Shown one piece after another: positions 20,311 through 44,240 of a stretch of DNA of 64,000 nt. Below the pieces are notes generated by a model, which saw only the letters and a program-made list of their open reading frames with translations, was not told where the DNA came from and did no database searches. Origin of the DNA: a virus; the IMG/VR virus record IMGVR_UViG_3300008450_000004, positions 52,882 to 116,881 of that record. The stretch is one strand, 5' to 3'. Both the position numbers and the translations under genes were made by a program. Position 1 is the first letter of the stretch. Every line of letters begins with the position of its first letter.

Positions 20311-20340
20311 AGGATCGTCAAGATCCTTTTCTTATCTTTA
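20311..20340 (+). promoter_or_regulatory. Combined terminator hairpin and promoter
   Basis: AGGATC / GATCCT stem (20311-20316, 20322-20327) with GTCAA as its loop, then TTTT. GTCAAG is followed after 10 nt by TATCTTTA (20333-20340), and the next ATG is at 20345. The same bases can end the upstream transcript and start the next one. Confidence 0.7.
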
Positions 20341-30144: not shown

Positions 30145-30174
30145 GGGACTGTCAAAGTCCCTTTTTTATCTTTA
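30145..30174 (+). promoter_or_regulatory. Combined terminator hairpin and promoter at the head of the cassette array
   Basis: GGGACT / AGTCCC stem with GTCAA in the loop, then T's. GTCAAA is followed after 10 nt by TATCTTTA (30167-30174). It lies just before the first attC-like site, so it would transcribe the cassettes, like the Pc promoter of an integron. Confidence 0.7.
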
Positions 30175-30179
30175 CACCT

Positions 30180-30233
30180 GTTAAACGTCCGATGATAAAC
30201 AATCGTTTTAATGTTGTTTATCATTTGTTATAT
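30180..30233 (+). repeat. attC-like site 0 (short loop)
   Basis: Left arm GTTAAACG, 4 nt, ATGATAAACAA; right arm TTGTTTATCAT then TTGTTATA. The 11-bp inner stem is perfect and the loop is 11 nt. The outer TAAAC / GTTA boxes are separated from the stem by unequal spacers, as in the later sites. It is the first site after the promoter, an attI-like position. Confidence 0.65.
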
Positions 30234-30267
30234 TTAGTTTTCGTTTAATTTACAAAATAATAAAAAT

Positions 30268-30516
30268 ATGGAAAAAGAAAAATTTATTGATGATAATGGT
30301 AAAGAAATATATGAGATTTCTTGTAAGACCGTATATAAGGAAGAGGATTTATCACCACATATTGTGTGTAATTTCACCTTAAAAAATATTGATGAAAATT
30401 GGGTAGTCAATATGAAAGAAGAAGATAGAGAAGAATTCATAACTGATGCTTTTTATAAGTTAAAATATTTTTTAAGGGGTGAAATTGGTAGTATTAAAAA
30501 ATTAAACGAAAATTGA
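30268..30516 (+). CDS. Cassette 1: hypothetical protein, 82 aa
   Basis: Starts 31 nt after site 0 and ends 2 nt before site 1. Composition: EKEKFIDDNGKEIYEISCKTVYK, then VCNFTLKNIDENWVVN; soluble, not recognised. The cassette begins GTTATATT and ends AATATAAC, which are complementary. Confidence 0.7.
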   Translation: MEKEKFIDDNGKEIYEISCKTVYKEEDLSPHIVCNFTLKNIDENWVVNMKEEDREEFITDAFYKLKYFLRGEIGSIKKLNEN

Positions 30517-30638
30517 ATATAACGATTCGCAGGTATGAAACGTGCCAACACAAATGATAATTGAAACAATGAATTTGAAATTAACATAAATACTAACTTA
30601 GATGCACCAAGGGCATGTTTTATACTTGCTGTTAGGCA
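30516..30638 (+). repeat. attC-like site 1
   Basis: Left arm AATATAACG, then GCAGGTATGAAACGTGCC; right arm GGCATGTTTTATACTTGC, then TGTTAGGC. The arms pair over about 18 bp, with two G-T pairs and only the outer box spacers unequal. The right box GTTAGGC fits the attC R' consensus GTTRRRY. About 65 nt of loop. Confidence 0.75.
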
Positions 30639-30650
30639 TCTGTAAAAATT

Positions 30651-30818
30651 ATGGATATGAAAACGAAAAATTACATTAAAACTTATTATAAGTTATACTT
30701 TACTGAGTGGAAATGGGTAATACTTGGAGTTGGTGCATTACCAATATTTGTACTGATATTGTTATCAGGGATACTACATGACATTACACACCCACTTAGT
30801 AATTTTTATTGTGCATAA
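30651..30818 (+). CDS. Cassette 2: small membrane protein, 55 aa
   Basis: ATG at 30651, 14 nt after site 1. One membrane segment (WKWVILGVGALPIFVLILLSG), then a short polar tail. The stop codon TAA lies within the left box of site 2. The cassette begins GTTAGGCA and ends TGCATAAC (7 of 8 complementary). Confidence 0.6.
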   Translation: MDMKTKNYIKTYYKLYFTEWKWVILGVGALPIFVLILLSGILHDITHPLSNFYCA

Positions 30819-30904
30819 CGGCTGCGTGTATGAAACGTAGCCACACACAACACTTGATATAAACCACAGACCTTAATTGGCTATGTTTTATACACGTTGT
30901 TATA
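30812..30904 (+). repeat. attC-like site 2
   Basis: Left arm TGCATAACG, then CGTGTATGAAACGTAGCCA; right arm TGGCTATGTTTTATACACG, then TTGTTATA. The stem is about 19 bp with two G-T pairs; the left arm has unpaired bases next to the box. Same layout as sites 1, 3 and 4 with different sequence. Confidence 0.75.
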
Positions 30905-30907
30905 AAT

Positions 30908-30997
30908 ATGGTTTTAGGTGGCGAAAGCAGTAGCACCATCTATTTGAATGTATTTGATTTAGTACTGGCGAGGGAAAAGTTAGTCATTCACACCTAA
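30908..30997 (+). CDS. Cassette 3: possible 29-aa peptide
   Basis: The only frame in this 100-bp cassette that begins with ATG (30908) codes for MVLGGESSSTIYLNVFDL and ends at TAA 30997. It may be a real micro-protein or the cassette may be noncoding. The cassette begins GTTATAAA and ends TTTATAAC (8 of 8 complementary). Confidence 0.3.
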   Translation: MVLGGESSSTIYLNVFDLVLAREKLVIHT

Positions 30998-31002
30998 AAC
31001 TT

Positions 31003-31127
31003 GTTTATAACGTTTTGCGTATTGGCGTTGTTGCCAACACTAATGTTAAATTGAAAAAATAAATTTGAAATATATGGAAAATATTGATTTGAAACAAGAA
31101 AGCAATAATGCTAATACGCTGTTATCG
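31003..31127 (+). repeat. attC-like site 3
   Basis: Left arm TTTATAACG, then GCGTATTGGCGTTGTTGC; right arm GCAATAATGCTAATACGC, then TGTTATCG. The stem is about 18 bp with three G-T pairs. The start of the next gene (ATG 31074) lies in the loop, so that gene reads through the right arm. Confidence 0.75.
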
Positions 31128-31295
31128 GCAGTTTCTCGTCCTGTTGCTAAAATGAAAGTACAATGGCATGGGTATGATTGTATTATACAGAAACTACGAT
31201 ACAGAGATAAGGTTGCTAAACTCAAACCTGATTATAGTGGTAAACCCATGCCATACGATTATTTTTGGGTAGATTTTAATGAAATCGGTTTTTGA
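31074..31295 (+). CDS. Cassette 4: hypothetical protein, 73 aa
   Basis: ATG at 31074 within the loop of site 3; TTG at 31065 would give three extra residues. The right arm of site 3 codes for ANTLLSAVSRP. The rest (MKVQWHGYDCIIQKLRYRDK) is soluble and not recognised. The cassette begins GTTATCGGCA and ends TGCCGATAAC (10 of 10 complementary). Confidence 0.65.
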   Translation: MENIDLKQESNNANTLLSAVSRPVAKMKVQWHGYDCIIQKLRYRDKVAKLKPDYSGKPMPYDYFWVDFNEIGF

Positions 31296-31298
31296 AAT

Positions 31299-31435
31299 TG
31301 CCGATAACGGTTTGCGTGTTTATTTAGTTGCGATTTAAAAATACAAAATTATGATAAAAGAAAAAGAATACTTAGAAGCAAAAAAGATTGTTGAAACCTA
31401 CGAAAGCGAGCAATTGAATAAACACGCTGTTAGTG
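31299..31435 (+). repeat. attC-like site 4
   Basis: Left arm GATAACG, then GCGTGTTTATTTAGTTGC; right arm CAATTGAATAAACACGC, then TGTTAGTG. About 17-18 bp of stem with G-T pairs. The right box GTTAGTG is one base from GTTRRRY. The start of the next gene lies in the loop. Confidence 0.75.
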
Positions 31436-31545
31436 GGCAAAGCGAACAGTTACCAAACTCTTGCGAATGTGATAATGTAGAAACATTCAATGGCTGGGGT
31501 AACGAAAAATGTATTAGATGTATAGACTGTGGCAGAGTTTGGTAA
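31351..31545 (+). CDS. Cassette 5: small Cys-rich protein, 64 aa
   Basis: ATG at 31351 in the loop of site 4. Residues 27-33 (HAVSGQS) are encoded by the right arm. The second half has NSCECDNVETFNGWGNEKCIRCIDCGRVW, a probable zinc ribbon (two Cys pairs). The cassette begins GTTAGTGGGCAA and ends TTGCCACTAAC, a match with one base deleted. Confidence 0.65.
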   Translation: MIKEKEYLEAKKIVETYESEQLNKHAVSGQSEQLPNSCECDNVETFNGWGNEKCIRCIDCGRVW

Positions 31546-31556
31546 TTGCCACTAAC
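31546..31556 (+). repeat. Half-site: end box of cassette 5
   Basis: TTGCCACTAAC, complementary to the first bases of cassette 5 except for one missing C. No matching right arm was found between it and the recombinase gene, so the array ends in a half-site or a decayed site. Confidence 0.55.
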
Positions 31557-31608
31557 TATTATATATACTTAACCATATTTTCTTACCAATAAAATCAATA
31601 ATTTAAAT

Positions 31609-32406
31609 ATGAAAATTCTTAAAGTATTTGAAGAAAAATTAAGATACAAAAACTATTCTAATAACAGTATCAAGTTATATATTTCTTATTTAAAACTTTT
31701 TTTAGAAACGGAAAAAATTAAAGACCCATATCAAGTAAGAACTCAACAGATAGTCTCATTCCTTGAAAATTACCCATATACTTCTTGTAGCCAACAAAAT
31801 CAATATATAGGTGCTCTTAAACTATTTGCTAAATATATCTTAAATAAAAAGGATATTCATTTAAGTAAAATAGAAAGACCTAAATCAGAAAAGAAATTGC
31901 CGAAAGTGGTAGATGGAGAGCTTATCAAAACACAACTACAAAAAATAGAAAATATTAAACATAAAGCAATTCTTAGTTTAACCTATTCAGTTGGACTAAG
32001 AGTATCTGAAATAGTTAATCTTAAAATCGAAAGTATCGATTCTAAACGAATGTTGATTCACATTAAAAACGCTAAAGGTAAAAAAGATAGAATTGTACCC
32101 TTATCACCAACTGTTTTGAATCTACTTAGAGAATATTATATAGAATATAAACCAAAAGAATACTTATTTAATGGTCAAAACTCAAATCAATATTCAATAG
32201 GTAGTTGTCAAAAAATCTATAAAAAATACATTGATGAGAATAGTTCAATACATAATCTTCGACATTCTTCATTTACCGGCTTATTAGAAAACGGAACTGA
32301 TTTAAGAATAATTCAAAAAATAGCAGGACATTCTAATATCAAAACTACTGAAATATATACTCACGTATCAAATCAACTCTTAGGTAAAGTGAATTTAGTT
32401 ATTTAG
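31609..32406 (+). CDS. Tyrosine recombinase next to the cassette array
   Basis: 265 aa. N-terminal SAM-like DNA-binding half (KNYSNNSIKLYISYLKLFLE). The catalytic half has SVGLRVSEIVNLK (first Arg), GKKDRIVPLS (Lys), HNLRHSSFTGLLENG (H-x-x-R), AGHSNIKTT and IYTHVS (Tyr). The length and spacing look Xer-like; I see no room for the extra helix that marks integron integrases. It is on the same strand as the cassettes and downstream of them, an unusual order. It is the best candidate enzyme for the array. Confidence 0.9.
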   Translation: MKILKVFEEKLRYKNYSNNSIKLYISYLKLFLETEKIKDPYQVRTQQIVSFLENYPYTSCSQQNQYIGALKLFAKYILNKKDIHLSKIERPKSEKKLPKVVDGELIKTQLQKIENIKHKAILSLTYSVGLRVSEIVNLKIESIDSKRMLIHIKNAKGKKDRIVPLSPTVLNLLREYYIEYKPKEYLFNGQNSNQYSIGSCQKIYKKYIDENSSIHNLRHSSFTGLLENGTDLRIIQKIAGHSNIKTTEIYTHVSNQLLGKVNLVI

Positions 32407-32409
32407 AAA

Positions 32410-32433
32410 GTCAAATCTTCTTTATTATCTTTA
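32410..32433 (+). promoter_or_regulatory. Predicted promoter, exact consensus
   Basis: GTCAAA, 10 nt, TATCTTTA, and the ATG at 32438 only 4 nt later. An almost leaderless transcript is expected. Confidence 0.65.
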
Positions 32434-32437
32434 CAAT

Positions 32438-37038: not shown

Positions 37039-37142
37039 TTGGTAGGCATTATTCTTTTTACTATATTTATATAAAATATTTTTACAATGACAAAACAATT
37101 AATAAACGAAGCCAAGCGATTCCAGGAATTAGCAGGCATTAA
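37039..37142 (+). repeat. 104-bp direct repeat, copy 1 (promoter plus N-terminal tag)
   Basis: Identical to 37625-37728. It covers a TATATTTA-type promoter region (GGCATT ... TATATTTA at 37045-37069) and the first codons of the gene at 37087, including the tag MTKQLINEAKRFQELAGI. Confidence 0.85.
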
Positions 37143-37476
37143 CGAAGTTAAAATTCAACTATCACCTCTTAGTATAATTAGATTTTTGGAAGAATATGAT
37201 GATGAGGTTTCTAAGAAAATATTCGAACCCCTTATGCAGCAATATGGTATACCTAAAGAAATAGCTACATATTATGCGTGGACTCCAGCAGATTATATGT
37301 ATGGTGAGAATACAGCTGAGTGCTCTATTGAGAGTGAAGATGGGCAAGTATCTATTGTGGCTAGTCTTAAACCTTACGATACGGAACTTGAAGAGTTAGA
37401 TCCTGAATATTCTAATAGTCACCCATACAATATAGCAGGAAAAAATGTTTATATTATTGATACTGATAATTTTTAA
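37087..37476 (+). CDS. Tagged protein A, 129 aa
   Basis: The N-terminal 18 residues MTKQLINEAKRFQELAGI are identical in the next gene. The rest (VKIQLSPLSIIRFLEEYDDE...) differs. The tag is an amphipathic helix like the capsid-targeting sequences of T4 internal proteins and Alt; proteins with it could be packed into the head and injected. The terminator at 37501 follows. Body not recognised. Confidence 0.65.
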   Translation: MTKQLINEAKRFQELAGINEVKIQLSPLSIIRFLEEYDDEVSKKIFEPLMQQYGIPKEIATYYAWTPADYMYGENTAECSIESEDGQVSIVASLKPYDTELEELDPEYSNSHPYNIAGKNVYIIDTDNF

Positions 37477-37624: not shown

Positions 37625-37728
37625 TTGGTAGGCATTATTCTTTTTACTATATTTATATAAAATATTTTTACAATGACAAAACAATTAATAAACGAAGCCA
37701 AGCGATTCCAGGAATTAGCAGGCATTAA
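37625..37728 (+). repeat. 104-bp direct repeat, copy 2
   Basis: Identical to 37039-37142. It again covers the promoter region and the N-terminal tag of the gene at 37673. Confidence 0.85.
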
Positions 37729-38230
37729 AAAACTAAATGAAAATATCTCCCCTAGTGGTAGAGCAGTTTGGATGCTCCAAAATCCAGGTAACCCAAATGA
37801 CACAATCCGAGAATTAGAATACGATGATAATACGGGTGAATTTGAGGTTTCTGACGATGGTTTTAAAAAAGGACCAATATGGGAAGCTGAAAGTGGGTTA
37901 TTTGATGATGTTACAGCTATTGGAAAATCTGATGGTAATACTTGGATATTAAAATTTGGGAATGCTGATGGTGAACCAATACTAGATGGATTTAAAGAAG
38001 GAGAGGATTTTATTTTTGTACCAAAAAGTAAATTACAACCATTAGAAACTGCATATTCTGGATTTTCTGGTGATGATATGGAGGGTATTCATGGGTATTT
38101 GAAAAATAACGACTGGGAATTAGAAACAGGCACAGAAGAATGGATGGATTTAGCCGATATAATAGGTGAAGAAAACATGTCTGAATATATAGATTTTATC
38201 GAGAATACATTAAAAATAAACATATTTTAA
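37673..38230 (+). CDS. Tagged protein B, 185 aa
   Basis: Same N-terminal tag as protein A (identical DNA), then a different acidic body (SPSGRAVWMLQNPGNPNDTI, DDNTGEFEVSDDGFKKGPIW). It appears to have obtained its promoter and tag by recombination with its neighbour. Not recognised otherwise. The AAAGCGCTC-type terminator follows at 38234. Confidence 0.65.
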   Translation: MTKQLINEAKRFQELAGIKKLNENISPSGRAVWMLQNPGNPNDTIRELEYDDNTGEFEVSDDGFKKGPIWEAESGLFDDVTAIGKSDGNTWILKFGNADGEPILDGFKEGEDFIFVPKSKLQPLETAYSGFSGDDMEGIHGYLKNNDWELETGTEEWMDLADIIGEENMSEYIDFIENTLKINIF

Positions 38231-42480: not shown

Positions 42481-42485
42481 TTTTG

Positions 42486-42559
42486 CACGCCTGGGTGGAT
42501 TCGAACCACCAACACTCGGATTTGGAGTCCGATGCTCTACCAATTGGAGCTACAGACGC
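42486..42559 (-). tRNA. tRNA-Trp (CCA)
   Basis: Canonical cloverleaf on the - strand: acceptor GCGTCTG / CAGGCGT, D stem GCTC / GAGC, anticodon stem TCGGA / TCCGA with loop CTCCAAA (anticodon CCA), T stem GGTGG / CCACC. Variable loop of 5 nt. No encoded CCA end visible. Confidence 0.9.
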
Positions 42560-43755: not shown

Positions 43756-43768
43756 TTTACTTTTTCGA

Positions 43769-43856
43769 ACTCAGAGCGGGATTCGAACCCGCATCTCCTA
43801 TACCAATATAGGGCGTTACCAATTGTGGTATTCATTTCCACTTACGCCATCTGAGT
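43769..43856 (-). ncRNA. tRNA-like gene 3 with D-loop hairpin and abnormal anticodon loop (88 nt)
   Basis: Minus strand. Acceptor ACTCAGA / TCTGAGT, D stem GCGT / ACGC, T arm GCGGG-TTCGAAT-CCCGC. The D loop holds an extra hairpin (GTGG-AAATGAATA-CCAC). In place of the anticodon arm there is a perfect CCTATA-TTGG-TATAGG stem with a 4-nt loop, so no normal anticodon loop exists. Confidence 0.6.
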
Positions 43857-44063: not shown

Positions 44064-44145
44064 GTAACACCGACGCCTTTACTTTCACGAGGACTTGCAT
44101 ATCTTTTTCAACATTTCTGTTTTAGGACTCCATCGGTATTTTTGC

Positions 44146-44240
44146 AGTCAGGACAGGATTCGAACCTGTACACTCCATTACAGAGTAACCCCATAGGTGA
44201 GTTATGTCCTCGAAAGCGTCTACCATTCCGCCACCTGACT
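44146..44240 (-). ncRNA. tRNA-like gene 5 (95 nt), possible CUA loop
   Basis: Minus strand, same acceptor and T arm. D stem GCG / CGC. A 12-nt segment separates the D arm from AACTC-ACCTATG-GGGTT, whose loop would place CUA at the anticodon but has C at position 33. Then a variable arm ACTC-TGTAATG-GAGT. Normal decoding is doubtful; an amber-reading role is only a possibility. Confidence 0.45.

Follow-up and report, generated by a model that had tools for sequence, protein, structure and literature searches.

A tyrosine recombinase with its own attC-like cassette array in a Bacteroidota phage: a probable integron-type platform

The cassette array, its recombinase and its flanks

The window, by which we mean the whole 64,000-nucleotide stretch analyzed here from a viral record of 116,881 bases, belongs to a phage of the large contractile-tailed type with a baseplate protein whose nearest counterpart is from Flavobacterium phage immuto (46%). 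Its + strand displays five long inverted repeats, noticed in an earlier note made from the letters of this DNA alone, which take the form AACG-(3-4 nt)-stem-loop-stem-(1 nt)-GTTA and proved to be real, as they score above the chance level set by 20 shuffles of the 64-kb window (best stem score 11). The distal one, site 0 (30183-30231; motif 30184-30230), is a 49-nt attC-like hairpin of a short-loop type (AAACG...TGTTAT) with a stem score of 12. The other four attC-like hairpins span 88-129 nt: site 1 (30520-30635; motif 30521-30634; stem score 16.5), site 2 (30816-30903; motif 30817-30902; 18.5), site 3 (31008-31125; motif 31009-31124; 16.5) and site 4 (31305-31433; motif 31306-31432; 17). The covariance-model check proposed in the earlier note bore this out: a model with 39 training sites, of which this window contributed a single one, recovered the other three long sites at E-values of 3e-7 (sites 1 and 3) to 1e-6 (site 4). 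In the entire 116,881-base record it found nothing above background besides the sites of the window, and a comparison with Rfam gave no match.

These sites punctuate five cassettes on the + strand, with cuts predicted after 30185 (site 0), 30522 (site 1) and 30818 (site 2). Cassette 1 (30186-30522) combines a hairpin with an 82-aa ORF (30268-30516) and has the ends GTTATATT/AATATAAC. Cassette 2 (30523-30818) contains a 55-aa ORF (30651-30818), the TAA stop codon of which is part of the recombination box, with gene and site overlapping; cassette 3 (30819-31010; 192 nt) shows no + strand ORF of at least 40 aa. Cassette 4 (31011-31307) codes for 76 aa (31065-31295) from a start inside the hairpin, and the integrase-proximal cassette 5 (31308-31555), with the ends GTTAGTGG/CCACTAAC, codes for 64 aa (31351-31545) from a start in the hairpin loop; two cassette ORFs in the stretch 30651-31545 start within their own attC hairpin. 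None of the four small ORFs of the array matches a known function, and the search for relatives of the cassette 1 gene among viral contigs found no clear one, with one 13-residue match. Each segment had been said to begin with bases complementary to its own end, and this was confirmed. The exact complementary prefixes of the five segments are 8, 4, 8, 10 and 8 bases, the second becoming 7 of 8 when counted past one mismatch, and prefixes of at least 8 bases occur in ~4% of mismatched cassette pairs. On average, own-end complementarity extends over 8.1 bases, as against 4.85 in mismatched pairs. These figures support the circular-cassette signatures that the earlier note ascribed to a phage-borne array, and its small genes and recombinase are as it described them.

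The last box of the array, TTGCCACTAAC, lacks a hairpin, and is explained by the conservation of an attI-like site, TAA^CTATTATATATA (31553-31567, + strand), where a cut is expected after 31555. It lies about 53 nt 5' of the recombinase start codon (about 35-75 nt across the related loci described below). AAC followed by at least 8 of the 11 bases of TATTATATATA occurs upstream of the recombinase in 62 of 67 phage loci as opposed to 6 of 201 control stretches. As judged by sequence, there is thus a conserved attI-like element, TAACTATTATATATA, beside the integrase gene. The recombinase itself (31609-32406, + strand; 265 aa) contains the PF00589 (Phage_integrase) and PF13495 domains, and its catalytic residues R131, H215, R218, H241 and Y250 are intact, showing no change in an alignment of 27 sequences. 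Taken as a whole, the segment from 30177 to 32424 is very probably a full integron-type platform in a phage of Bacteroidota, combining a dedicated tyrosine recombinase, an attI-like site and five cassettes with attC-like hairpins.

The module is flanked by an 11-bp direct repeat, TTATCTTTACA, of which the left copy (30166-30176) is promoter-like and the right copy (32425-32435) lies where the following phage gene has its promoter region. Directly 5' of the module, on the + strand, is a terminator-like hairpin, GGGACTGTCAAAGTCCC, with a T run (30145-30167), which alignment also recovers in relatives without the module. In five such phages (L259-L263), the flanking genes are the same on both sides with neither sites nor recombinase between them, the downstream protein showing 72-79% identity; a single copy of TTATCTTTACA is present in empty-site relatives, exactly in L259 and with one change in L261. 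The comparison shows gain or loss of the entire platform at this position; in the other compared members of the family it sits between other genes. Two more copies of TTATCTTTACA lie outside the module, at 20332 and 40275, and fit a recurrent promoter-like element of this phage. Elsewhere in the window, neighboring ORFs at 37087-37476 and 37673-38230 share a near-identical N-terminus, MTKQLINEAKRFQELAGI, and diverge thereafter. ARAGORN further reported two minus-strand tRNA-like genes with a two-base anticodon 'aa' (43767-43856 and 44144-44240), which are probably spurious, near a normal tRNA-Trp (42485-42559).

Fold, strand and junction of the sites

Among 39 diverse sites, compensatory changes were found in 15 of 21 stem pairs; pairing is kept while the sequence varies, and the comparison shows conservation of the fold by covariation. 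The stems extend for 14-20 bp beyond the boxes and enclose loops of 11 to more than 60 nt. As in attC sites, we see imperfect inverted repeats with R'' and R' boxes, a variable sequence and a conserved fold. Because G-T wobble pairs (370, 322 of them with G in the left arm) far outnumber A-C pairs (33), the + strand is the better-folding one. It is also the more stable strand in 224 of 238 sites, though both counts are biased towards it by the score used in collecting sites, which tolerates G-T pairs. The earlier note had rightly read the G-T excess as favoring the top strand; its addition that this is unlike classical attC was a labeling error. By comparison with the aadA7 and VCR sites, TAACG...TTTGTTA is the bottom strand of classical attC read 5' to 3'. 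Hence, the arms had been swapped, and the better-folding strand corresponds to the classical recombinogenic one.

A further expectation had been that relatives would gain or lose whole segments with breaks at the TGTTA box. Whole-segment gain and loss is indeed seen, but the breaks fall at the AACG box. Homology between arrays starts 2-6 bases before the AACG-box cut in 32 of 138 cases and ends 1-3 bases after it in 11 of 86, as against 2 starts and 1 end at the same distances from the GTTA-box cut, all these counts taking in near-copies. On these alignments, the recombination junction is the AACG box, with the cut placed at AA^CG and essentially never at the TGTTA box.

Distribution, movement and direction of the cassettes

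At least 60 viral loci share this recombinase (41 and 80 loci in two scans of viral contigs, some of the contigs being common to both), and nearly all have 1-17 sites immediately 5' of it, with different small genes between them. In nearly all loci with enough sequence, the array is directly upstream and on the same strand. A motif scan of 1.94 Mb from these loci assigned 338 sites to the + strand and 80 to the opposite one, as against two in one shuffle, with 0-17 sites per phage locus within about 8 kb. In the motif scan, 46 of the 50 phage loci that extend 1.5 kb or more upstream of the recombinase have a site within that distance (in L197, one of the other four, the covariance model finds one), and 0 of 65 have one within 1.5 kb downstream. 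The association of array and recombinase is thereby shown by comparison across loci. Classification as a CALIN (an attC cluster without an adjacent integrase) was rejected, given that a recombinase, though not of the IntI family, adjoins the array in 46 of 50 loci.

The loci have almost entirely different genes, with 202 singleton cassettes and 35 shared clusters, several of the latter between near-copies of one phage. A comparison of 129 cassette proteins with Pfam, PHROG and PADLOC found few known families, the recognizable cargo comprising DNA methyltransferases (about 5), an RNA ligase, an exonuclease and a phosphatase. Comparison across loci shows that cassettes move as discrete units with the break in the R' box. 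A 311-nt unit of hairpin and gene occurs with 100% identity in L127 and L140, two distantly related phages with recombinases 79% and 65% identical to that of the window, and the flanks differ from AA^CG outward. A 956-nt cassette (99.9%) is found mid-array in L155 and attI-proximal in L159 and L160; among these three, which come from three samples and are 94-100% identical where aligned, whole cassettes are present, absent or moved. Many 49-nt sites are near-identical and could have caused mis-joining in the short metagenomic contigs (L155 and L159); hence, the L127/L140 case weighs more.

The longest ORF lies on the hairpin strand and runs towards the recombinase in 257 of 264 phage cassettes. 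A classical Pc at the integrase end, driving the cassettes outwards, was thereby ruled out, as it could not drive genes that run towards the recombinase. The simplest guess is that the cassettes are transcribed from the promoter-like element at the far end of the array (30166-30176), after the terminator, i.e. presumably by the phage's own promoter. On neither strand of the cassettes is the Bacteroidota -7 motif more frequent than in shuffles; hence, a promoter in every cassette is unsupported.

Related systems also occur on bacterial chromosomes and plasmids. Arrays with recombinases of the same clade in Flavobacterium, Chryseobacterium and other Bacteroidota (L052, L110, L112, L115 and L204) have genes running in the classical direction and, past the stop codon of the recombinase, a conserved attI; current tools probably list them as CALINs. 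In these chromosomal relatives, the site GCGnATATAAACnA^GTTA lies 3' of the recombinase gene and its reverse complement resembles the phage attI. The chromosomal and plasmid versions (L052, L110, L112 and L204) share the recombinase clade, the site type and a related attI with the phage platforms, but differ in the classical direction of their cassette genes (44 of 44 in the chromosomal arrays with that layout) and in an integrase that is co-directional with them. Of 148 genomes sampled from the phylum of the Flavobacterium locus L052 (genome G001), at least 38 contain sites of the same type. In a sample of 297 genomes of this phylum, 84 have an IntI scoring over the curated cut-off, a share higher than the literature on complete Bacteroidetes genomes suggests.

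Nature of the recombinase and its implications

The platform is integron-like in its working; by the defining test, that of the recombinase, it is not an IntI integron. The earlier note had suspected that the enzyme is too short for the IntI insertion (I2), and it indeed lacks it: the spacing between the conserved boxes is 58-65 residues in this clade, as opposed to 106-108 in IntI and 67-73 in Xer. The integron-integrase model TIGR02249 matches with 142.9 bits against a cut-off of 265, in two pieces with a gap of ~48 positions (model ~206-254), and the match to IntI4 is likewise split around a gap. In a tree with a small reference set, the phage and Bacteroidota array-associated enzymes form one clade (100/99), IntI another (100/99) and the Xer enzymes a third (100/98). 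IntI identity was rejected on the sub-threshold TIGR02249 score, the I2 gap and the separate clade. Xer identity, implied in the note's term 'Xer-like', was likewise discarded, XerC, XerD and XerA grouping apart and the XerC/XerD models scoring far below their cut-offs. The predicted structure (mean pLDDT 87.5) best matches IntI4 (2a3v) and XerA.

We posit that the + strand of a cassette site, equivalent to the classical bottom strand, most likely folds when single-stranded, for instance during phage replication. The recombinase would cut the folded site at TAA^CG and join it to attI or another site, such that cassettes would leave as circles and insert beside the recombinase, and phages could trade small accessory genes by cassette exchange. 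That recombination takes place at these sites, with cutting by the phage recombinase, is what we infer from the comparisons, and single-strand folding of the site is presumably needed. In IntI, the I2 helix holds the attC bases protruding from the hairpin, and its absence here therefore counts against this reading. We considered whether the recombinase might act in the manner of Xer enzymes, which are double-strand recombinases, on double-stranded DNA, with the hairpin symmetry being merely that of inverted binding boxes. The lack of I2 would suit this well. However, double-strand binding needs neither the 14-20 bp of stem beyond the boxes, in which pairing is kept despite variable sequence, nor the one-strand G-T bias and the variably long loops, and we consider this explanation unlikely, though not negligible.

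Slightly less credible to us is the proposal that the array is an orphan attC cluster from host integrons, moved by host IntI beside an unrelated phage integrase. In its favor, integrase-free CALINs do occur in phages (PMC9892861), and the IntI genes of the phylum mean that host enzymes could do the work instead. Moreover, Polaribacter phage P12002L (38034-39245) carries attC-like sites of this type on the strand of its genes, adjoining methyltransferase genes, and the search for a related recombinase in that phage was negative; we regard these sites as an orphan version of the phage integron system. Nevertheless, array, attI and recombinase are tightly associated in about 60 divergent loci, chromosomal relatives of the clade also adjoin arrays with matching attI, and the site model fits poorly to the DNA next to true IntI genes of the same phylum. 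That the enzyme is simply a lysogeny integrase, as temperate phages commonly carry tyrosine recombinases, beside unrelated terminators or repeats, is extremely improbable in view of the contractile-tailed phage type, the shared boxes, complementary ends and unit-wise movement of the repeats, and the lack of such sites near the integrases of phages Ingeline, Freya and Leef.

The favored reading, an integron-type platform with its own recombinase, can be set against several known systems. The earlier note knew of no described phage integron of this design, but phage integrons and orphan attC clusters, with IntI or without an integrase, have been published: Qi et al. (2023) reported integrons or parts thereof in 21 phages and activity of IntI1 on 5 of 6 tested phage attC, including a verified product for attC2 of P12002L (PMC9892861). 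The P12002L sites that match our model, with genes on the hairpin strand, may differ from that attC2. Those systems resemble the present one in their phage-borne attC cassettes and, in P12002L, in site type and gene strand; they differ in having IntI (Vibrio, Shewanella, P1) or no integrase, whereas the present platform, recurring in dozens of phages, has a dedicated integrase without I2 and an attI of its own. With bacterial integrons, the platform shares folded attC-type sites with R boxes (TAAC/GTTA), complementary cassette ends, an attI that adjoins the integrase at the corresponding array end, a polarity of insertion and a predicted recombinogenic strand equivalent to the classical bottom strand. 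It departs from them in its non-IntI recombinase lacking I2, in stems without obvious protruding bases and in cassette genes that face the integrase, opposite to the classical direction. XerC/XerD in the single-strand integration of CTX-phi likewise offer an I2-less tyrosine recombinase acting on a folded single-stranded site (PMC7790495), but the Xer clade is separate, no dif-type site was recognized here, and many cassettes rather than one genome are involved.

Single-strand recombination has been attributed to the I2 helix, with direct proof of causality unavailable because I2 deletion kills IntI1, although a folded single-stranded phage site can serve as substrate for tyrosine recombinases without I2 (PMC7790495). 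In the literature covered, which did not extend to bioRxiv and most subscription journals, we found neither an I2-less integron integrase with attC arrays nor a description of reversed gene direction in phage cassettes. We give even chances to the idea that a second, independent lineage of integron integrases recombines folded single-stranded attC without I2, this capacity having either evolved twice or been preserved from a pre-I2 stage in the phage and Bacteroidota enzymes; the latter would fit the viral origin that has been proposed for integrons. The role of I2 in single-strand recombination becomes testable with an enzyme that naturally lacks it and has attC arrays and an attI of its own. 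If our reading is true, phages own gene-capture platforms, and not only borrowed fragments of integrons. Given the methyltransferases, RNA ligase and exonuclease that they carry alongside many small genes of unknown function, their cassettes probably form a reservoir of genes for host takeover and counter-defence.
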